Of a DNA stretch of 49,290 nucleotides, positions 9,957 through 24,646 are shown in pieces. Below the pieces are notes generated by a model, which did not search any database, was not told where the DNA came from, and saw only the letters and a program-made list of their open reading frames with translations. This DNA comes from Lactobacillaceae bacterium (GTDB lineage Bacteria > Bacillota > Bacilli > Lactobacillales > Lactobacillaceae), in the NCBI GenBank assembly GCA_031289015.1, contig JAITQG010000025.1, positions 1-49,290 of the forward strand, read 5' to 3'. The position numbers and the translations under genes were made by a program. How positions within the stretch are numbered: the stretch's first letter is position 1; each line of letters begins with the position of its first letter.

Positions 9957-10197
9957 ATAAAAAAAACACAGAAGATTAATCTTCTGTGTTTTAGTTTGGC
10001 GTTGCTATTGAGTGACCGGCAATAGCTCCGGTGATAGATTTCTCTATCAGTCAACGTACACGCAAATCTATTGCTAGAAAAGTTAGTCATGTGTAGCGGG
10101 GCGGTTCCACAACCGCTTACCGCACCTACCACCAATGCGGGTGTATATGTAGGCCGTTTATAAAGATCAAATCATGATCTTCTCGACTCATCGCATA
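9957..10197 (-). ncRNA. candidate structured small RNA, about 240 nt, class not recognised
   Basis: The 379-base gap between two minus-strand genes holds a self-contained transcription unit. A promoter lies at 10204-10232. The end is a 30-base perfect palindrome (9963-9992) followed on the minus strand by a run of about nine T. In between are several strong helices read on the minus strand: GATAGA/TCTATC with a GAAA loop, CCGG/CCGG, GCGGTT/AACCGC, CCGCAT/GTGCGG, and a closing pairing of TGAGT near the 5' end with ACTCA near the 3' end. There is no coding frame of note. A 6S-like or Lactobacillales-specific RNA is possible. It lacks SRP RNA, tmRNA and RNase P signatures that I would recognise. 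Confidence 0.5.
9963..9992. terminator. 30-base perfect palindrome acting as terminator
   Basis: The palindrome is centred on GATTAATC with ACACAGAA/TTCTGTGT arms. On the minus strand a run of T residues follows (9955-9962), so it ends the RNA candidate upstream. Confidence 0.8.
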
Positions 10198-16143: not shown

Positions 16144-16311
16144 GGGGTTTTTAGCCGTTTCACGGCTAGGTGTTTGGGTTTGGTGGCAAAATGGGCTCCG
16201 CATTGGTGCTGTTGAAGGGGGCGACAGAGTCCCACTAATCTAAGGTCCCAGGCCCTGATAAAGCAGAACCTGCAACCTAAGACCGCGTTGGTGCTCCTAC
16301 CTCGCTTAACC
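16144..16311 (+). repeat. palindromic element copy A, left part (split by an IS)
   Basis: This is the 5' part of a long hairpin element. It starts with the small stem-loop TAGCCGTTTCACGGCTA (near 16152-16168). The left arm at 16170-16196 pairs perfectly over 27 bases with 18070-18096, and GCATTGGTGCTGTTG (16200-16214) pairs with 18052-18066. A TCC internal loop lies on each strand. The conserved core GCGACAGAGTCCCACTA and CTAAGACCGCGTTGGTG follow. The insertion sequence enters directly after CGCTTAACC (16303-16311). Two more copies lie between tpiA and eno. Confidence 0.88.
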
Positions 16312-16403
16312 GAGGCCGCTGAAAAAGTAACGAAATTATGAAATTAGTGAAAATCAGCGAAAATGAGTCCTTTGATTTATAAAAAAATGGAAAAATGTCA
16401 AAA

Positions 16404-16424
16404 AAAGAGAGGGTTTCACCCTCT
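16404..16424 (-). terminator. terminator of the transposase gene
   Basis: On the minus strand an AGAGGGTGAAACCCTCT hairpin directly follows the stop codon and is itself followed by CTTTTTTTG. Confidence 0.8.
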
Positions 16425-17893
16425 TACTTTTGATTCTTTATCCCTTTTTCGTTGATTAAGGTCACAATTCTTTTCAGATTCACCGTGAATATGGCCATCG
16501 ACGCTTGAATATCCATGCTTAATAGACCACCACTTTGCGCTCGATTAAAGCCGTGATAGTTCTTAAGTTCTGAATATTTAGCTTCGATTTTATATCTAGT
16601 TTTGTAGCTGATCTTAAAATCGTCCGACTCCTGATATTCTAGCTGATAACCATGAGTGGGGGTGAGTGTTGGTATTCGATACGTCTTTTGCTTTTGTTCT
16701 TTGGTTATGCAGCCTTCTTGTAATGGGCATTTATGGCATTTCTTGATGTCCATCCAATATTGAATAGCTGTTTTTTCATTGGTTTGAGCTCCTAGATGTT
16801 TTATAGAAGCGGGTAATTCTCCAGCAGGGCAGACTGGCATGTTAGCATCTTTATTGAATTCCCAATTATTTTTGGGATTTCTTGTTGAACCTGAAATTGT
16901 CGGATGTAATTTTGCAACTAATGCAATGCCGTTATTGAGGGTATATTTTATATTGGGTGAACCTGAATATGCTGTGTCTCCAATTACTTTGTTAACGTCT
17001 ACACCGTTTCGTTTTGAAACTTCAATTAATTCTTGCAAGAATTGTCCATCAAATTTTTCGCCACCAGTTACTAGTGCTGCAGTAATAATTCTTTCATCTG
17101 ACATTGCTGTATGTGTTTTGTAACCATAAAATGAAGTTGTTGAAGATTTGTGACCTAGCTTCGCATCTGCATCAAGTGTTTCTCGACTACGTTCTGTGAT
17201 GTCTTCGACTTTTTCCTTTACCACGTTTAGCTTTTCCGAAATGTTTGGAATGTTTGAAACATTACTTTGTTCTATAACTTCAATTAATTTCTGTGTGTAT
17301 TCTTTTTCAAGATCTAATTCACTAGTTATGTTTTTGGTCGGAAATTTAGTCTTAATTGATTCGTCAACTGCATAAACAGCTTTACGCAATTCTTTAGATG
17401 AATTACGCAAAATTTCAACTGGATTGTTTACACCAAAACGCGCCGTAGTGTGCGTAGAATCGATAATAAGATTTTTGCTTTTTAAAACACCGTTTTCAAT
17501 CGCGATAGTAACGGTTTTATTGATTAATAGGTCTAATAGGTTACCATCTTTTAATCTTAATTTTCTGAATTTTGTGAGCGAGGTTGGATGTATTACGTCA
17601 TCTTCGGGAGCTAAGTCCAAGAAGAATTTTAAAGCCATGTCTGTGTGAACTCGCATAACTAAATCACGATCAGATAAATTGAAAACTGATTTTAGATATA
17701 GATATTTGAACATAAGGACGGGATCAAGGGCGGTACGCCCTTGAAATATCGAATAATTATTAATTAGTTCATCGTAAACAAATGAAAAATCAACTAATTC
17801 CTTTACTTGACGCAAAAAATGGTCTTTTGGAATGATAATGTCATAGAGTTTCATATATGGACTTAAATTTAATTCATTTTGTTCGCTTAGCAT
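16424..17893 (-). CDS. IS1182-family transposase
   Basis: This 489-residue transposase has the IS1182/DUF772 layout. The N-terminal domain includes FQGRTALDPVLMFKYLYLKS and the DDE catalytic core includes NLIIDSTHTTARF (first Asp near 144) and VIGDTAYSGSPN (second Asp near 300). A cysteine cluster CHKCPLQEGC follows near 388-397 and YKTRYKIEAKYSELK near the C-terminus carries the likely final Glu. No frameshift is seen, so the element may be active. The start is supported by GGGGATAATTTG upstream. Confidence 0.93.
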   Translation of the reverse strand: MLSEQNELNLSPYMKLYDIIIPKDHFLRQVKELVDFSFVYDELINNYSIFQGRTALDPVLMFKYLYLKSVFNLSDRDLVMRVHTDMALKFFLDLAPEDDVIHPTSLTKFRKLRLKDGNLLDLLINKTVTIAIENGVLKSKNLIIDSTHTTARFGVNNPVEILRNSSKELRKAVYAVDESIKTKFPTKNITSELDLEKEYTQKLIEVIEQSNVSNIPNISEKLNVVKEKVEDITERSRETLDADAKLGHKSSTTSFYGYKTHTAMSDERIITAALVTGGEKFDGQFLQELIEVSKRNGVDVNKVIGDTAYSGSPNIKYTLNNGIALVAKLHPTISGSTRNPKNNWEFNKDANMPVCPAGELPASIKHLGAQTNEKTAIQYWMDIKKCHKCPLQEGCITKEQKQKTYRIPTLTPTHGYQLEYQESDDFKISYKTRYKIEAKYSELKNYHGFNRAQSGGLLSMDIQASMAIFTVNLKRIVTLINEKGIKNQK

Positions 17894-17941
17894 ACAAATT
17901 ATCCCCGTCTATTCTGGCAAATTCACTATCTTAATTATACC

Positions 17942-17967
17942 AAAAAACGCCTATATAAAGGCGTTTG
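17942..17967 (-). terminator. hairpin at the upstream edge of the IS transposase gene
   Basis: An AAACGCC/GGCGTTT stem-loop is followed on the minus strand by T residues. It lies between the IS end and the transposase gene, upstream of a TATAAT-like box (near 17936-17941). It may stop outside transcription from entering the transposase gene, a common IS safeguard. Confidence 0.55.
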
Positions 17968-18037
17968 TCGACTTAAAAACCGCTCCAATATGGACATTAA
18001 TTACTGGACTCAAACGGCCGACTTTTTCAGCAGCCTC

Positions 18038-18136
18038 CGCTTAACCCCCTACAACAGCACCAATGCTCCGCCCATTTTGCCACCAAACCCAAACACCGGC
18101 TTCCAGTCGCTTTAGCTCCTTACAGCCCTAAAGCTT
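18038..18136 (+). repeat. palindromic element copy A, right part
   Basis: It resumes with the duplicated CGCTTAACC, then the right arms that pair with the left part (18052-18066 and 18070-18096). The 3' stem-loop GCTTTAG (18109-18115) / CTAAAGC (18128-18134) follows. This closing hairpin is present in all three copies. Removing the IS and one target copy restores a continuous element of about 260 bases. Confidence 0.88.
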
Positions 18137-18179
18137 CAATTACACATTTTCTTATTTTTTTGGTTTGTTCTGATGTTTA

Positions 18180-18340
18180 GTTCCAAAGGAGTTCAAAAGA
18201 CGGAACAACTCGTAAAAAGATTTTGATTGATTCTGGATCAAGTGAAAGCATTATGCAGTTGGGTAATTCAAATGCACCTATTTTGTCGTCATCCATCACG
18301 TTAGAGGTTGTTAATCGCAGGATTAGAGAGACTAAATAGT
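18180..18340 (+). pseudogene. possible gene remnant
   Basis: The frame from 18180 to the TAG at 18338-18340 is open for 53 codons and reads protein-like (KKILIDSGSSESIMQLGN, then SSSITLEVVNRRIRETK). It has no usable start: a TAG lies directly before it and there is no Shine-Dalgarno site at the internal ATG. It could be the C-terminal scrap of a decayed gene. I do not recognise the family, and chance is possible at this length. Confidence 0.25.
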
Positions 18341-18358
18341 ACAACGTAATAGGTTGTA
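18340..18358. repeat. short inverted repeat upstream of trxB
   Basis: TACAAC and GTTGTA arms flank a 7-base spacer. It lies about 120 bases before trxB and could be an operator or weak hairpin. A plausible trxB promoter (TGGAAA, 17 bases, TACAAT) lies downstream of it near 18383-18411. Confidence 0.3.
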
Positions 18359-18482
18359 CATAGTTCAGTCATAAATCAACAATGGAAAAAAACTCGTAGA
18401 CAAGGTACAATAAATCTCATACAACTAACAGAAAGTTAGCTAGATTAATTGAAAATAAGTTTCCCACTGAGGAGGAATGTCC

Positions 18483-19436
18483 ATGACACAACATTACGAT
18501 ACAATTATTATCGGTGCTGGTCCGGCTGGAATGACTGCAGCTACCTATACCGCTCGTGCTAATATGGCAGTTTTGATGATTGACCGCGGGATTTATGGTG
18601 GTCAAATGAATAACACGGCTGAAATCGAGAATTATCCTGGGTTTGAATCCATCCAAGGGCCAGAATTGGCTGAAAAAATGTATGGTTCAACAACTAAGTT
18701 TGGCGCCGAATATGCGTTTGGCGCTGTTGAACACATTGTGGCTGAAGACGAACAGACTTGGCGTGTGATTACTGATATGGATGAATACACGACCAATTCA
18801 GTGATTTTGGCGACTGGAGCAGCGTATAAGAAACTCGGTACGCCAGGCGAAGACGATTATACCGGCCGTGGGGTATCTTACTGTGCTATCTGTGACGGTG
18901 CCTTTTTCCGTGGCGAACACGTGGTTGTTGTGGGTGGCGGTGATTCAGCAATTGAAGAAGCCACTTATTTGGCTGGGTTAGCTGATAAGGTGACCATTGT
19001 GCATCGGCGCGACAAATTGCGCGCACAACAAATCATCCAAGATCGGGCTTTTTCAAATGAAAAAATCGATTTTGTTTGGAACTCAGAAGTCCAAGAAATC
19101 CTTGGTGATGGCAATAAAGTTACCGGTGTTAAAATCGTAAATAATCAAACGGGTGCAGAAAGCCAAATTGATGCGGCTGGTATCTTTATTTATGTCGGAT
19201 TGTTGCCAGTTTCTGAACCATTTGCTGATTTGCACGTGACCAACGAACAAGGCTGGGTGATTACCAATGAACGGATGGAAACCGCTCAACCAGGTATCTT
19301 TGCCGTGGGTGATTTGCGCGAAAAAGAATTACGCCAAATTACGACGGCAGTTGGCGACGCCGCGATTGCCGGGCAAAATGCCTTTTCGTACTCTGAAAAT
19401 GTGAAGATGGCCAAGCAAAATATTACGGCTAAATAA
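18483..19436 (+). CDS. trxB: thioredoxin reductase
   Basis: This 317-residue flavoenzyme passes electrons from NADPH to thioredoxin. The FAD motif GAGPAGMTAATYTAR is at 11-25, the redox pair Cys134-Ala-Ile-Cys137 is in SYCAICDGA, the NADPH site GGGDSAIEEA is in the middle, and GIFAVGDLRE lies near the C-terminus. The ATG at 18477 is one base from the GGAGG, so the ATG at 18483, seven bases away, is preferred. In related genomes trxB follows galU; here the palindromic element and IS lie between them. A weak hairpin (about 19447-19477) may end transcription. Confidence 0.95.
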   Translation: MTQHYDTIIIGAGPAGMTAATYTARANMAVLMIDRGIYGGQMNNTAEIENYPGFESIQGPELAEKMYGSTTKFGAEYAFGAVEHIVAEDEQTWRVITDMDEYTTNSVILATGAAYKKLGTPGEDDYTGRGVSYCAICDGAFFRGEHVVVVGGGDSAIEEATYLAGLADKVTIVHRRDKLRAQQIIQDRAFSNEKIDFVWNSEVQEILGDGNKVTGVKIVNNQTGAESQIDAAGIFIYVGLLPVSEPFADLHVTNEQGWVITNERMETAQPGIFAVGDLREKELRQITTAVGDAAIAGQNAFSYSENVKMAKQNITAK

Positions 19437-19567
19437 TTTTTAATTTAAAAGGAATCGATTAAGTTACGGTTCCTTTTATGGTTATTAATGATGCATCTTT
19501 CATTAATGTAGAAAGAAGCGTAAAATATTCTTTGAGTGTTTTTAAAAATTGCGAAAGGAGTCCACAA

Positions 19568-20545
19568 ATGACGCAAGGGACAAAAATAATTGCTTCTGCA
19601 CACTATGTGCCATCAGATATCATAACCAATGATGATCTAGCAGCAATCATGGATACCAACGACGAGTGGATTCAAGCACATACAGGTATTAAAGAACGCC
19701 GGATGTCACTGCAAGGTGAAAATACGTCTGATTTGGCGACGCAAGCTGCGCGCTTGGCCTTAGCACAAACGGATTTAACCGCCGCCGACATTGATTTAAT
19801 TATTGTGACGACCTTTACTCCAGACGGTTTGGCACCATCAACGGCGGCCTTGGTACAACGGAATTTACAGGCCGAAAATGCTTGGGCGTATGATATTTCA
19901 ACCGCTTGCTCTGGCTTTGTATTTGGCATGAGTACGGCAGATAAATTTATCAAATCTGGGCAATATAAAAACGCCTTGGTTATTTCAGCTGAAGTTAATT
20001 CGAAAATGATGGATTTTAAAGATCGCACATCCGCCGTCTTTTTCGGAGATGGCGCTGGGGCCGTTATTTTAACGGCTGTTGAGGCCACGGCAGGTGAAGT
20101 GGTTGGTGAAAAAATGCGCACGATTGGTGATGCGGATGTAGTCCATTCTGGCCGCGTTGCTCCAATGCGCAAACTTGATGCTGATAACTATCCAGTCATT
20201 GATGCGTTTCAACAAGAAGGCCGTAAAGTCTTTAGTGAAGTGACGGACATTATTCCAGCACACATTGCCGGTTTTTTGGCGGATCAAAACTTGACCCCAG
20301 CAGATGTCGATTATTATATTACCCACCAAGCTAATTTGCGGATTATTGAAAATATTGCCCGAGCGTTAGAGCAACCGATGAGTAAATTTTCAGCAAACGT
20401 GGTTTATTATGGGAACACTTCATCGGCCGGGATTGCTATGGCTTTTGATGAATTGAATCATCAAGTCGATTTGACTGGTAAAAAGGTGTTGTTAACCGGC
20501 TTTGGGGCTGGGTTCACATATGGTAGTTTGTTACTACAATTTTAA
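19568..20545 (+). CDS. fabH: beta-ketoacyl-ACP synthase III
   Basis: This 325-residue thiolase-fold enzyme condenses acetyl-CoA with malonyl-ACP to start fatty acid synthesis. The catalytic triad is visible: Cys114 in DISTACSGF, His253 in THQANLRI and Asn283 in YYGNTSSA. GAAAGGAG stands 7 bases before the ATG at 19568. It is not beside other fab genes here, so it may be a stand-alone or second FabH. It is followed 12 bases later by a small gene of unknown function. Confidence 0.92.
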   Translation: MTQGTKIIASAHYVPSDIITNDDLAAIMDTNDEWIQAHTGIKERRMSLQGENTSDLATQAARLALAQTDLTAADIDLIIVTTFTPDGLAPSTAALVQRNLQAENAWAYDISTACSGFVFGMSTADKFIKSGQYKNALVISAEVNSKMMDFKDRTSAVFFGDGAGAVILTAVEATAGEVVGEKMRTIGDADVVHSGRVAPMRKLDADNYPVIDAFQQEGRKVFSEVTDIIPAHIAGFLADQNLTPADVDYYITHQANLRIIENIARALEQPMSKFSANVVYYGNTSSAGIAMAFDELNHQVDLTGKKVLLTGFGAGFTYGSLLLQF

Positions 20546-20557
20546 TGAGGAGGCACA

Positions 20558-20743
20558 ATGACTGATTACTATGAAATGCTGGAACAATTGCGAACTGGGC
20601 AACTAGATCAATTTGTTTTGGAAGCCACCGAATTTCCGGAATTTTATGAAATATGGCGTAATTATTCATATCAAAATGTAATTCGTGGCATTGCTAGCCA
20701 AGGCGGTAAAGTGACGTATACCAAGGCGCCAGAAGCTGACTAA
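20558..20743 (+). CDS. unrecognised 61-residue protein
   Basis: It has a strong ribosome site (GAGGAGG, 6 bases before ATG) and lies 12 bases after fabH, so it is very likely translated. It is acidic, rich in Tyr and Glu in its first half (MTDYYEMLEQLRTGQLDQF), and has no membrane segment or cysteine. I do not recognise a family. Co-transcription with fabH suggests some link with lipid synthesis, which is only an association. Confidence 0.7.
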   Translation: MTDYYEMLEQLRTGQLDQFVLEATEFPEFYEIWRNYSYQNVIRGIASQGGKVTYTKAPEAD

Positions 20744-20795
20744 ACGGATGGATTACAAATTTTTGATAAACTGGTAAACCACTTCGAAAATGAAT

Positions 20796-20809
20796 TGAAA
20801 ACGCTTGCA
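20796..20809 (+). promoter_or_regulatory. cre site (CcpA operator) of ptsHI
   Basis: TGAAAACGCTTGCA fits the cre consensus TGWAARCGYTWNCA at every position. It overlaps the -35 of the ptsH promoter, so bound CcpA would compete with RNA polymerase. Confidence 0.75.
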
Positions 20810-20833
20810 ATACGTTTTAGATACTGCTAATAT
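20805..20833 (+). promoter_or_regulatory. ptsHI promoter
   Basis: TTGCAA (20805-20810) is followed after 17 bases by TAATAT (20828-20833), preceded by TGC (extended -10). The leader before the ptsH start at 20925 is about 85 nt. Confidence 0.65.
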
Positions 20834-20924
20834 AATAATTAGGATTAAGGCAGGAATGCTTTTATCAGGATAAATATATAATTAAATTGGATTTAATTTA
20901 ATTGACACAGAGGAGATTTTTAAC

Positions 20925-21191
20925 ATGGAATCACGTGATTTTAACATCGTAGCAGAAACAGGTATCCACGCACGTCCAGCGACTTTGTTGGTACAAACTG
21001 CTTCAAAGTTCTCATCAAACATCACATTGTCATACCAAGGTAAAGACGTTAATTTGAAGTCAATCATGGGTGTTATGTCATTGGGTGTTGGTCAAAATGC
21101 TGACGTTTCAATCTCTGCTGAAGGTGAAGATGAAGCTGATGCAATCGCAGCTATCGAAGAAACTTTGAAGGCTGAAGGATTGACTGCTTAA
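20925..21191 (+). CDS. ptsH: phosphocarrier protein HPr
   Basis: This 88-residue PTS protein relays phosphate from Enzyme I to sugar-specific EIIA. His15 in GIHARPA is the catalytic phosphate carrier, and Ser46 in [12 protein letters not shown] is the regulatory site of HPr kinase, whose gene is at 13190. P-Ser-HPr is the CcpA co-repressor, and a cre site lies in its own promoter, closing a feedback loop. Codon use is highly biased. ptsI follows after 44 bases. Confidence 0.98.
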
Positions 21192-21235
21192 TTTGTAACA
21201 AAATACTTGAATAGAATTAATCTGAGGAAAACAAA

Positions 21236-22963
21236 ATGGCAACAGTGATTAATGGAATTGCTGCATCAAACGGTGTAGCCATTGCAAAAGCATATAAGCT
21301 AGTGGACCCAGATTTGTCTTTTGAACAAGTTACGATTGAAGATGTTCAAGCAGAAACGGACCGCGTAAAGGCGGCCTTTTCTATTTCTAAGACAGATTTG
21401 GAAACCATTCGCGATAAAGCAAAAGAAAATATGGGCGCGGCTGAAGCGGAAGTTTTCACAGCCCACATCATGGTTTTAGAAGATCCTGAATTGATTGGTG
21501 GGATTAGTAACGCGATTGCATCAGATAAGATCAACGCTGAAGCTGCCTTGAAGCAAGTGACAGACATGTATATCGGGATGTTTGAAGGCATGGCGGATGA
21601 CAATCCATATATGGCGGAACGTGCAGCTGATATTCGTGATGTGACTAAGCGCGTACTTTCACATTTGTTAGGTAAAGAATTACCAAATCCAGCTTTGATT
21701 AAAGAAGAAGTGATCATCGTCGCTACCGACATGGCGCCTTCTGATACGGCGCAACTGGATCGAAATTTCGTCAAGGGATTCATCACTGATTTAGGTGGTC
21801 GAACGGCGCACGCTGCTATCATGGCACGGACGTTAGAAATCCCAGCGATTGTTGGTTCACAAGTGGCAACCAGTGATATCAATGATGGTGATGTCATGAT
21901 TTTGGACGGCATTGACGGGGTAGCGATCGTTAACCCAACCGATGACCAAATTACCCAATATCAAGCTAAGGGTGACCAATATTTGCAACAAAAAGCTGAA
22001 TGGGCTGCCTTAAAGCATGAAAAATCAGTTTCGGCTGATGGTATCGAATTCATGACTGGGGCCAATATCGGTACACCTAAGGATTTGAAGGGTGTTAAGG
22101 AAAATGGTTCAGAAGGAATTGGCCTGTATCGGACCGAGTTTTTGTACATGGACTCACAAGAATTGCCAACTGAAGACGATCAATTTGAAGCCTATAAAAC
22201 GGTGCTTGAAGGGATGGACGGCAAAGTTGTTACAGTTCGAACGATGGACATTGGTGGCGATAAGAATTTGCCATATCTACCATTGCCTAAGGAAGAAAAT
22301 CCATTCATGGGTTATCGGGCTATCCGAATTTCATTGGATAAGCAAGACATTTTCCGCACGCAATTACGCGCCTTGCTACGGGCTTCAGTCTATGGTAATT
22401 TGTGGATTATGTTCCCAATGGTGGCGACATTAAATGAATTCCGCCAAGCGCGTGATATATTTAATGAAGAAAAGACGGCTTTGTTGGCTAAGGGCGTGAC
22501 AATTGCTGATGACATTAAATTGGGCATCATGATTGAAATCCCAGCGGCAGCGATGTTGGCTGATAAATTTGCCCAAGAAGTTGATTTCTTCTCAATTGGA
22601 ACCAATGATTTGATTGCGTATACAATGGCGGCTGATCGTGGCAACGAACATGTTTCTTACCTATATCAACCATATAACCCATCAATTTTGCGCATGATTA
22701 AGATGGTTATCGACGCTGCACATAAGTACGGTAAGTTTGCTGCGATGTGTGGTGAAATGGCTGGTGATCAAATTGCTGTGCCAATTTTGATGGGACTTGG
22801 CTTGGATGAATTTTCAATGTCAGCAACATCAGTTTTGCAAACGCGGGCTTTGATGAAACGTTTGGATACTAAGGAAATGGCTATTTTAGCTGAAAAAGCT
22901 TTAGATTTGGACACTAATGAAGCAGTTGAAGCTTTGGTTAAAGCCGAAATTTATGCAAATTAA
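21236..22963 (+). CDS. ptsI: PTS Enzyme I (phosphoenolpyruvate-protein phosphotransferase)
   Basis: This 575-residue enzyme autophosphorylates with PEP and passes phosphate to HPr. The active His192 is in [13 protein letters not shown]. The PEP-binding barrel has [12 protein letters not shown] and [11 protein letters not shown], and the late catalytic Cys is in [21 protein letters not shown] precedes the ATG. A strong terminator follows, so ptsHI is a two-gene operon. Confidence 0.98.
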
Positions 22964-22975
22964 GCGGATTGACTG

Positions 22976-23022
22976 AAAAAAGCAGGCAAGACAAACCAGT
23001 TTTGTCAGTCTGCTTTTTTGTT
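22976..23022 (+). terminator. terminator of ptsHI
   Basis: The long stem AAAAGCAG...AGACAAA pairs with TTTTGTC...CTGCTTTT and is followed by TTGTT. Confidence 0.85.
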
Positions 23023-23047
23023 AAAAGGCAGAAAGGTGGGCAGGTGT

Positions 23048-23830
23048 ATGACCAAACGAAATCCAATCGTCGTGGCTAATTGGAAAATGAATAAGTTACC
23101 GAGCGAAACAATTGAATATATTGTGCAAATTCAAGAGCAAGTCAAAGCGTATCCCGAAGTCGATATGGTTTTGGCGGGCCAAGATGTCTTATTGACGGCC
23201 ATGGTTGCTGCTGCTGGTGGAACGACATTATCAGTTGGCGCTGAAAATGTGTATTGGCAAGATCGGGGCGCATACACTGGTGAAACATCGCCGGCTGCCT
23301 TACAAGATTTAGGCGTGAAATACGTCATTATTGGCCATTCTGAGCGCCGTAATTATTTTCGAGAAACTGATGAAATGGTGAATCTAAAAGCCGTTGCTGC
23401 GCTCAAACATGACTTGATTCCAATTATTGCGATTGACGAACCAATTTCAGCTGAGTCAGAAAGTGACAATGTGCAATGGGTGGTTAATCAGGTGATTGAA
23501 TCGCTGGAGGGGATCAGTGAGGTTGATGCAACTAAATTAATTTTGGCGTATGAACCGACTGCTGCCATTGGTAGTGGCCAGGCGATGACACCAGAATTGG
23601 CGCAATTCTCATTACGCCGGATTCGGTTAACTTTGGCGGATATGTATGGCTGGGAGATTGCTAATCGGATTCGGATTACTTATGGTGGGTCTGTTAAGCC
23701 GGCTAACGTTTATGAATTGATGGTGCAACCAGATATTGATGGCGTTTTGGTTGGTGATGCGGCGCTTGATCCGCATACGTTTGTGGAGTTAGTTAAGCTT
23801 TCGGCGCAGGCTATGCGGGGTAGTGAATAA
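23048..23830 (+). CDS. tpiA: triosephosphate isomerase (divergent)
   Basis: This 260-residue TIM barrel interconverts DHAP and glyceraldehyde 3-phosphate. The catalytic Lys13 (NWKMN), His97 (GHSERR) and Glu169 (AYEPTAAIG) are all present. Several normally invariant stretches differ: the loop is EPTAAIGSGQA instead of EPIWAIGTG, and the CxGE segment reads AIDEPISAE. Its codon use is ordinary, with mixed leucine codons, unlike the strongly biased eno, gap and pgk. It may be a low-expressed TIM that mainly supplies DHAP for GpsA, or a paralogue of another tpiA elsewhere. AAAGGTGG stands 8 bases before the ATG chosen. Confidence 0.88.
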   Translation: MTKRNPIVVANWKMNKLPSETIEYIVQIQEQVKAYPEVDMVLAGQDVLLTAMVAAAGGTTLSVGAENVYWQDRGAYTGETSPAALQDLGVKYVIIGHSERRNYFRETDEMVNLKAVAALKHDLIPIIAIDEPISAESESDNVQWVVNQVIESLEGISEVDATKLILAYEPTAAIGSGQAMTPELAQFSLRRIRLTLADMYGWEIANRIRITYGGSVKPANVYELMVQPDIDGVLVGDAALDPHTFVELVKLSAQAMRGSE

Positions 23831-23836
23831 GCACAT

Positions 23837-23870
23837 TAAGGAGTTGATTTTGATCAGCTTCTTTTTTTGT
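23837..23870 (+). terminator. terminator of tpiA
   Basis: The hairpin pairs AGGAGTTGAT with ATCAGCTTCT (with wobble) around TTTG and is followed by seven T residues. Confidence 0.65.
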
Positions 23871-23890
23871 TGGAGGTCTTATTTTGCTTT

Positions 23891-24152
23891 TGGGGTTGTT
23901 TAGCCGTTTCACGGCTAGGAATTTTGGTTGGTGGGGAAAGGGGCTCCACATTGCTAGCGTAGAGGTGGGCGACAGAGTCCCACTAGTCTAAGGGACTCGG
24001 CTCCGCGCAGGCGCGAAACCAATTCCCTAAGACCGCGTTGGTGCTCCTACCTCGCTTTTTCCACCACTACGCCAGCAATGCTCCGCCCCTTTCCCCACCA
24101 ACCAAAATCCCAACCTTCAGTCGCTCTAGCTCCTTTCGGTTACTAAAGCTTC
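23891..24152 (+). repeat. palindromic element copy B
   Basis: This is a complete element of about 260 bases. The stem-loop TAGCCGTTTCACGGCTA (23901-23917) comes first. The arm at 23921-23944 pairs perfectly over 24 bases with 24085-24108, and 23949-23962 pairs with 24067-24080 with one mismatch. A TCC internal loop is conserved on each strand. The core GCGACAGAGTCCCACTA, GTCTAAGGGA and TCCCTAAGAC follow, with an A-A mismatch in the pairing of the last two. A 3' hairpin (GCTCTAG/CTAAAGC) lies near 24123-24150. The arms differ in sequence from copies A and C. Confidence 0.9.
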
Positions 24153-24339
24153 AGCCAACTACTTCTCTCGTAATAATCTACTCCACCAATCATGATGGAT
24201 AATCTTGTTTGTGTTTCTTAATTTTGATTTGATTCAAGAACAGTTTCTGTCAAAGCCCCCCCGAAAAAGATGATAATTAAAAAATCAGGCGTGTTGGAAG
24301 TTTGCCTCTTAGCCAAATTTGCTTTGATGGAATAAAAGT
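24153..24339. other. gap between two palindromic elements
   Basis: No coding frame with a ribosome site and no clear hairpin gene is visible. It is AT-rich with a run of seven C near 24259. It simply separates elements B and C. Confidence 0.4.
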
Positions 24340-24600
24340 GAAGCTCTAGGGTTGGAAGGAGCTAAAGCGACTGGAGACCGGAATTTATGTTTGGTCTGGG
24401 GAACGGCGGAGTATTGCTACTGTTGTAGGGGAATCCGCGAGGTAGCGGCACCAACGCGGTCTTAGGGAGTTGATTTTGCGCTTGCGCAAGGCCAAATCCC
24501 TTAGACTAGTGGGACCGTGTCGCCCCCTTCAACAGTAGCAATACGTAGCCGTTCCCCAGACCAAGCATAAATTCCTAGCCGTGCAACGGCTAAGCAACCC
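24340..24600 (-). repeat. palindromic element copy C (inverted)
   Basis: This is the same element on the minus strand. The arms 24382-24407 and 24548-24573 pair over 26 bases with one G-T pair, and 24411-24425 pairs perfectly over 15 bases with 24530-24544. The 5' stem-loop (24576-24592) and 3' hairpin (24343-24368) are present. In its core the helix GAG/CTC of copies A and B is replaced by CGG/CCG, a compensatory triple change, while the neighbouring loop sequences are unchanged. Confidence 0.9.
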
Positions 24601-24646
24601 CACAAATAAAAAAAGTCCTCGGTAAGTATAATCTAAGGCGAATTTG

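Follow-up and report, generated by a model that had tools for sequence, protein, structure and literature searches.

Double-hairpin elements are known from fungal mitochondria, and group IIC introns insert directly behind intrinsic terminators. Repetitive hairpin-forming elements invade the intergenic regions of sponge mitochondria and are structurally divergent between lineages (PMC2800124). In bacteria, REPINs are described as non-autonomous inverted doublets that lie between genes and form hairpins with compensatory changes (PMC3116915), and the pneumococcal BOX, RUP and SPRITE repeats as interspersed, tightly folding as RNA, modular in the case of BOX, enriched near the 3' ends of genes and thought to be parasitic (PMC3049150). 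Here we describe a family of structured repeats in a 49,290-nucleotide stretch of DNA from a Lactobacillaceae bacterium (contig JAITQG010000025.1; the whole stretch is called the window) and in Weissella genomes. An initial annotation of the window had noted three large hairpins, copies A, B and C, in which the stems change while the loops stay fixed; this observation as a whole is confirmed and the three copies lie where they were first placed. Beyond it, we have found many further copies and have recognised that a complete element comprises two arms in inverted arrangement. We lean towards the view that this is a non-autonomous, non-coding, insertion-competent family of interspersed Weissella repeats, the arms of which are selected as structured RNA and which is probably mobilised in trans. 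The initial interpretation overall is partly supported.

Structure, covariation and strand of the arms

On the strand that folds better as RNA, an arm begins with a pseudoknot at its 5' end, continues as a rod of ~80 pairs interrupted by fixed internal loops rich in purines, and closes with the 3' terminal hairpin, the stem of which differs greatly in sequence among copies. Along the rod the order is outer stem, GGA/GGA loop, second stem, a mostly A-rich bulge, GCGA/UCGC with a GGUAG/UG loop, a covarying block and the apical stem. The motif GCTTTAG/CTAAAGC, originally taken for a 3' hairpin, fits an H-type pseudoknot better, with the stem GCUUUAG/CUAAAGC crossed by a stem AACC/GGUU. This second stem has double changes at all four of its pairs (variants AACC/GGUU, GGCU/AGCC, ACCC/GGGU, GACC/GGUC and AGCU/AGCU), and in an alignment (A6) of 35 of the 53 arms from the window's own genome (G000), the remainder being 16 without the motif and 2 too short at that end, its score and its number of cells with double change were reached by none of 500 shuffles. 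In the sister species (G022) the stems differ, yet GCGACA, GTCCCA, GGTGC and CTACCTCGC recur; W. confusa likewise has other stems but retains the TCC/TCC loop and the GGCGAC core.

The proposal that such a pattern reflects selection for structure is strongly supported by covariation and strand tests on alignments of the arms. The covariations quoted for the three window copies are correct, GAG/CTC in A and B being CGG/CCG in C, and AGGGA/TCCCT being AGGT/ACCT in A. In an alignment (A5) of 33 type-I arms of G000 with 78 pairs, 97.9% of the cells are paired against 83.9% after shuffling, 50 pairs have changes on both sides against 29.0 in the shuffles, and the covariation score is 0.393 against 0.139. 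None of 500 shuffles reached any of five measures, and structures slid by 1–3 columns scored 0.050–0.105. A5 was drawn from the 53 G000 arms as the first 39 (type I) less one without flank, L192 and four removed by hand (L030, L036, L193 and L194). When all five of these were kept, so that no arm was removed by hand, the resulting 38-arm alignment had 77 pairs, 51 of them with double change.

The strand first described is the complement of the better-folding RNA strand, and its orientation has therefore to be reversed. When every 5' stem arm is set against its reverse-complemented 3' partner, the mismatches prove to be mostly A.C on the strand first described, that is, G.U on its complement. 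Distinct position-type mismatch events on the complement (G.U : A.C) number 23:7 in G000, 8:3 in G022 and 21:4 in W. confusa, or 52:14 over the three lineages (binomial P = 3e-6); counted as cells they are 52:11, 56:3 and 74:30, respectively. The test used 45 of 53, 27 of 33 and 27 of 28 arms, 7, 6 and 1 being skipped with fewer than 75% matches and one G000 arm having no flank. In A5 the complement has 207 G.U and 13 A.C cells, the reverse being true of the other strand, and its consensus folds at −133.6 against −99.6 kcal/mol; the corresponding values for the 38 arms are 239 and 22 cells and −125.7 against −93.6 kcal/mol. Taken singly, the complement is the more stable in 49 of 52 G000, 33 of 33 G022 and 26 of 28 W. 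confusa arms (108 of 113 in total), as against 83 of 150 control segments.

The bias is present in each arm's own frame, whichever its orientation. For the right-hand type-IV rods of W. confusa elements the favoured strand is in all 7 cases the one that runs outward from that side, and their mismatches run 5:1 in that direction, opposite to the other half. Thus, no single transcript or DNA strand fits both halves, which suggests two divergent single strands. The choice between a structured RNA and a protein-recognised DNA hairpin, both of which had been offered at the outset, leans to RNA because the G.U bias lies on one strand.

The full unit runs terminal hairpin, rod, centre, inverted rod, terminal hairpin, and since its two arms are in opposite orientation their RNA strands point outward. 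With a second rod defined as a 220-nt window below −90 kcal/mol, 17 of 44 G000 and 19 of 28 W. confusa arms have one towards the inside, whereas towards the outside the counts are 1 of 53 and 0 of 28; many of the G000 loci are cut by contig ends. These second rods are of several kinds. Rods of the TGCTTGGCCCC... and GCAAATGCC... kinds adjoin type-I arms (L061, L063, L230, L232, L062, L231 and L240), the GCAAATGCC... rods also show compensated stems, and each kind may represent a separate family of structured RNA.

Copies B and C of the window are an inverted pair of this sort, that is, a two-rod unit. Copy B is a complete arm at 23891–24156 with its RNA on the minus strand, where it folds with −160.9 kcal/mol against −129.9 on the strand first described. 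From its RNA 3' end it comprises the terminal hairpin (TAGCCGT/ACGGCTA, 23901–23917) and the rod (23918–24111) of outer stem, TCC/TCC loop, second stem and core, followed by the H-type pseudoknot at the RNA 5' end (24110–24156), all on the minus strand. The symmetric TCC/TCC loop, GGA/GGA on the RNA strand, lies at 23945–23947 and 24082–24084. The core (23969–24055, minus) has fixed GCGACA (23969–23974) and CTACCTCGC (24047–24055) with covarying pairs between them, and reads GCGAGGUAG ... UGUCGC as RNA. A centre, or spacer, to which no strand is assigned (24157–24334) separates it from copy C, a complete arm of opposite orientation (24335–24602, RNA strand plus; −149.6 against −136.3 kcal/mol on the other strand) with its pseudoknot at 24335–24381 and its terminal hairpin, the RNA 3' end, at 24576–24592, both on the plus strand. 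Compared with shuffled sequences the folds of B and C have z = −9.7 and −11.0, and none of 200 shuffles equalled either.

Copy A is one hairpin interrupted by an insertion sequence. Its first piece (16144–16311, RNA strand minus) contains the terminal hairpin, outer stem arm and core up to the CGCTTAACC bulge, and its second (18038–18136, RNA strand minus) the second stem arm, outer stem arm and pseudoknot region. The insertion sequence in the bulge (16312–18037, minus) encodes a DUF772/DDE_Tnp_1_6 transposase (open reading frame 16424–17893) and is flanked on both sides by CGCTTAACC, a perfect 9-bp duplication; it is a hitch-hiker inside copy A, outside the element proper. Insertion sequences of this kind may favour hairpins, one having been found in this bulge. 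Elsewhere in the window, 10102–10195 (minus) matches the Rfam family Ref68, an Enterococcus small RNA (Lacto-3), with 61.9 bits.

Distribution, insertion and genomic context

A BLASTN search with copy B found 58 matching pieces in G000, with 41 scoring over 180 bits. R1, a covariance model built on the element core from 32 sequences, gave 86 matches in G000, 106 in G022 (of which 33 were taken for study), 9 in G011, 2 in G007 and 1 each in G005 and G006, with none in 22 of the 28 Weissella genomes. The scan scored the best 132 candidates per genome, and its match counts are not exact arm counts, some matches being contig-end pieces or the opposite strand of the same place; of one set of 75, 5 duplicated a stronger match on its opposite strand and several were truncated by contig ends. 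A W. confusa-type core model, run on seven genomes, found 17 matches in G011, 6 in G008, 5 each in G007 and G006, 3 in G005 and none in G017 or G019, the five carriers among these belonging to the W. confusa group. Taken together, the two models place the family, so far as tested, in 7 of the 28 Weissella genomes. Many G000 contigs end a few hundred bases from an arm (L006, L007, L010, L013, L014 and others), indicating that the assembly breaks at the elements.

The family is not Lactobacillales-wide as far as tested: under stricter filters R1 matched 1 of 301 Lactobacillaceae genomes, an even sample into which G022 was evidently not drawn. A loose pattern scan of 84,980 species returned 90 stretches, and the 80 listed comprise 56 from the metagenome-assembled genome Lactobacillaceae Po218_bin95, 13 from W. 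confusa and 11 others, non-Weissella, none of which folds into a rod by eye. The exact G000-type pattern was absent from named genomes, a set that possibly does not contain the window's own genome. Neither the G000 nor the W. confusa type matched plasmids or phages, and two IMG/VR pattern matches considered as horizontal carriers do not fold into a rod. The early statement that no named family fits holds, in that no Rfam family reached its gathering score on the elements of the window and of 3 plus 8 further loci; the sub-threshold matches on the window pair were MIR1858 (36 of 137 bits), RRE (15 of 104) and MIR869 (11.7 of 330). No description of the element was found in the open-access literature on Weissella repeats, miniature inverted-repeat transposable elements (MITEs), hairpin elements and structured interspersed repeats.

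Comparison of occupied and empty sites, as suggested at the outset, yielded one clean empty site, in the W. confusa group. In G011 an element of ~606 bp, which has one type-II and one type-I arm, stands directly behind the T-tract of an intrinsic terminator; it is absent from G005, G006 and G008, and G007 has other sequence behind the same terminator. At this one site there is no clear target duplication and, by eye, no shared terminal repeat. At a second site G006 has the full element, G005 a deletion scar and G007 a remnant. For loci L265 (G005) and L248 (G011) a deletion scar between the two terminal hairpins was noted, as expected when a long palindrome is lost. The element has no shared coding gene and is highly base-paired, as a MITE would be, and its copies insert; the MITE alternative named initially is nevertheless only half right because insertion alone leaves fixed loops with changing stems unexplained.

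The outer ends lie beside the 3' end of a gene, as taken from a simple open reading frame call, in 37 of 53 cases in G000 (median 42 nt) and 14 of 27 in W. confusa (median 40 nt), or 51 of 80 pooled (P = 0.02). Runs of five or more T are more frequent outside than inside the element, at 22 against 11 of 46 in G000 (P = 0.03) and 12 against 1 of 28 in W. confusa (P = 0.001); these counts use full windows only, some inside control windows having been shortened in a first pass.

Among the seven carriers, RAYT (Y1_Tnp, PF01797) was absent from G000, G022, G006, G007, G008 and G011, with one in G005, and reverse transcriptase (PF00078) was absent from all seven, being present in 3 other genomes of the 28. 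IS110 (PF02371) occurs in G000, G006 and G007 and is absent from G022, G011, G005 and G008; a TnpB-like protein (PF07282) occurs in G005, G006 and G008 and is absent from G000, G022, G007 and G011. Hence none of the four tracks the element. An autonomous copy with an adjoining transposase was sought, and none recurs among the loci studied (arms with ~1.5 kb). The frames that do recur beside arms are ABC-transporter and surface-protein-like paralogues (at up to 5 other loci in G022 and 2 in G000) and open frames through the type-IV rods. Coding for protein by the arms themselves was rejected: open frames cross some arms but differ among lineages, and the apical region has indels. As to parvovirus-like hairpin transfer, no flipped orientation of the asymmetric loops was noticed, no dedicated test having been made.

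Weighing the explanations

On the reading that we favour, of a structured-RNA family mobilised in trans, the arms would be transcribed outward and selection would act on the arm RNA. A trans-acting machinery would, most likely, recognise the fixed loops of that RNA and place new copies behind terminators. Arms that had lost the fold could not be copied, and stem sequence would drift freely through G.U intermediates. A bolder form, which we regard as unlikely, has the element copied by an undescribed route that needs neither reverse transcriptase nor RAYT, IS110 or TnpB. Two divergent rod RNAs would then be the recognised substrate or guide when a copy inserts behind an intrinsic terminator, and selection during copying would keep the fold as the stems turn over.

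Several observations weigh against the favoured reading. No mobiliser was found, and the genome with most matches, G022, is without PF01797, PF00078, PF02371 and PF07282. A scan of two centres, including window 24110–24390, found no sigma-70 consensus promoter; the W. confusa centre has, by eye, a conserved GTGGATG...TAGAAT arrangement in which the consensus scan likewise finds none, and in G000 the sequence preceding the RNA 5' end is variable. Only a single empty site is clean, the second being a case of full copy, scar and remnant. The outward strand is not the favoured one in 5 of the 113 arms, and a one-strand bias could arise from transcription-coupled mutation as well. Related copies inflate shuffle tests; as kin sequences can exceed shuffles without structure, the effect size and the slid controls count for more than the 0 of 500. 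Forcing all 52 G000 arms, including type II, into a single alignment greatly weakens the consensus (−48.8 against −32.3 kcal/mol, the complement still being favoured), and the pseudoknot test is mixed, 88 of 500 shuffles reaching its number of pairs with double change and 361 of 500 its number of further pair types. Finally, at site L232/L240 (G011 and G007) the upstream flanks differ at few bases but the outer stems of both rods are different, the two stem arms matching each other in each species. The stems have here changed faster than the flanks, which fits conversion between copies as well as compensation in place; the new stems were not found in the other W. confusa copies studied, and an unsampled copy may have been the donor in such a conversion.

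The inverted pair, the hairpins at both ends, the lack of a shared coding gene and the observed insertion would equally suit a REPIN-style DNA hairpin, in which a transposase recognises folded single-stranded ends, G.T is tolerated in DNA and RNA is not needed. The outward strand with its 3' end, the transferred strand, must then fold at each end, and the outward strand at both ends is indeed the one that a transposase would probably join; compensatory changes are also reported for REPIN hairpins (PMC3116915). Against this, there is no Y1 or RAYT transposase in G000, G022 or G011, G.U makes up 207 of 2549 pair cells, and a 5' pseudoknot with a covarying second stem, together with purine-rich loops, would seem more natural in RNA, so that we hold this explanation to be possible but doubtful. 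That copies behind terminators are kept by the host in cis, as insulators, processing sites or antisense RNA, would account for outer ends close behind gene 3' ends. We think it improbable, given that only 7 of 28 Weissella genomes carry the family, with highly uneven copy number and with scarred or truncated copies, that the outer ends favour gene 3' ends to a modest degree (51 of 80, P = 0.02), and that the presumably parasitic pneumococcal repeats are also reported to be enriched downstream of genes (PMC3049150). It is very improbable that no selection is involved and that template switching or mismatch repair within the palindrome keeps the arms alike and mimics covariation. The stems are near perfect and at L232/L240 whole stems have been replaced on both sides, as such copying would produce, but it would also erase the TCC/TCC loop, the bulge and the CA/CTACC loop, which survive in nearly all aligned arms, and it predicts neither the one-strand G.U bias nor the covarying pseudoknot stem.

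Relation to known repeats

The family combines a very strong natural covariation signal with ~100 matches per 2-Mb genome in two Weissella species, and the one-strand G.U bias in opposed arms allows the production of two divergent RNAs to be proposed from genome sequence alone. With this family, how bacterial repeats spread when no transposase can be recognised, and whether their spread is driven by RNA structure, become questions open to experiment.

An interspersed structured repeat is a known kind of element; the double-rod architecture we have not found described in the open-access literature. Group IIC introns resemble the element in insertion behind an intrinsic terminator, but its carriers are without reverse transcriptase (0 of 7) and the loci tested gave no Rfam group II intron match. 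From the hairpins of sponge mitochondria it differs in being bacterial, in its two opposed arms and in covariation around fixed loops. Like BOX, RUP and SPRITE in the accessible part of their description, it is an interspersed repeat of a Gram-positive bacterium, tightly folding, modular and near gene 3' ends; the outward double-rod layout is not mentioned for them there, and it is by description only that the two are set apart. To REPINs it corresponds in being a non-autonomous, intergenic inverted doublet with compensatory changes. It differs from the REPIN/RAYT system in that G000, G022 and G011 have no RAYT/Y1 protein and in that the arms, which are much longer, carry a pseudoknot and fixed internal loops and are paired with modular second arms.

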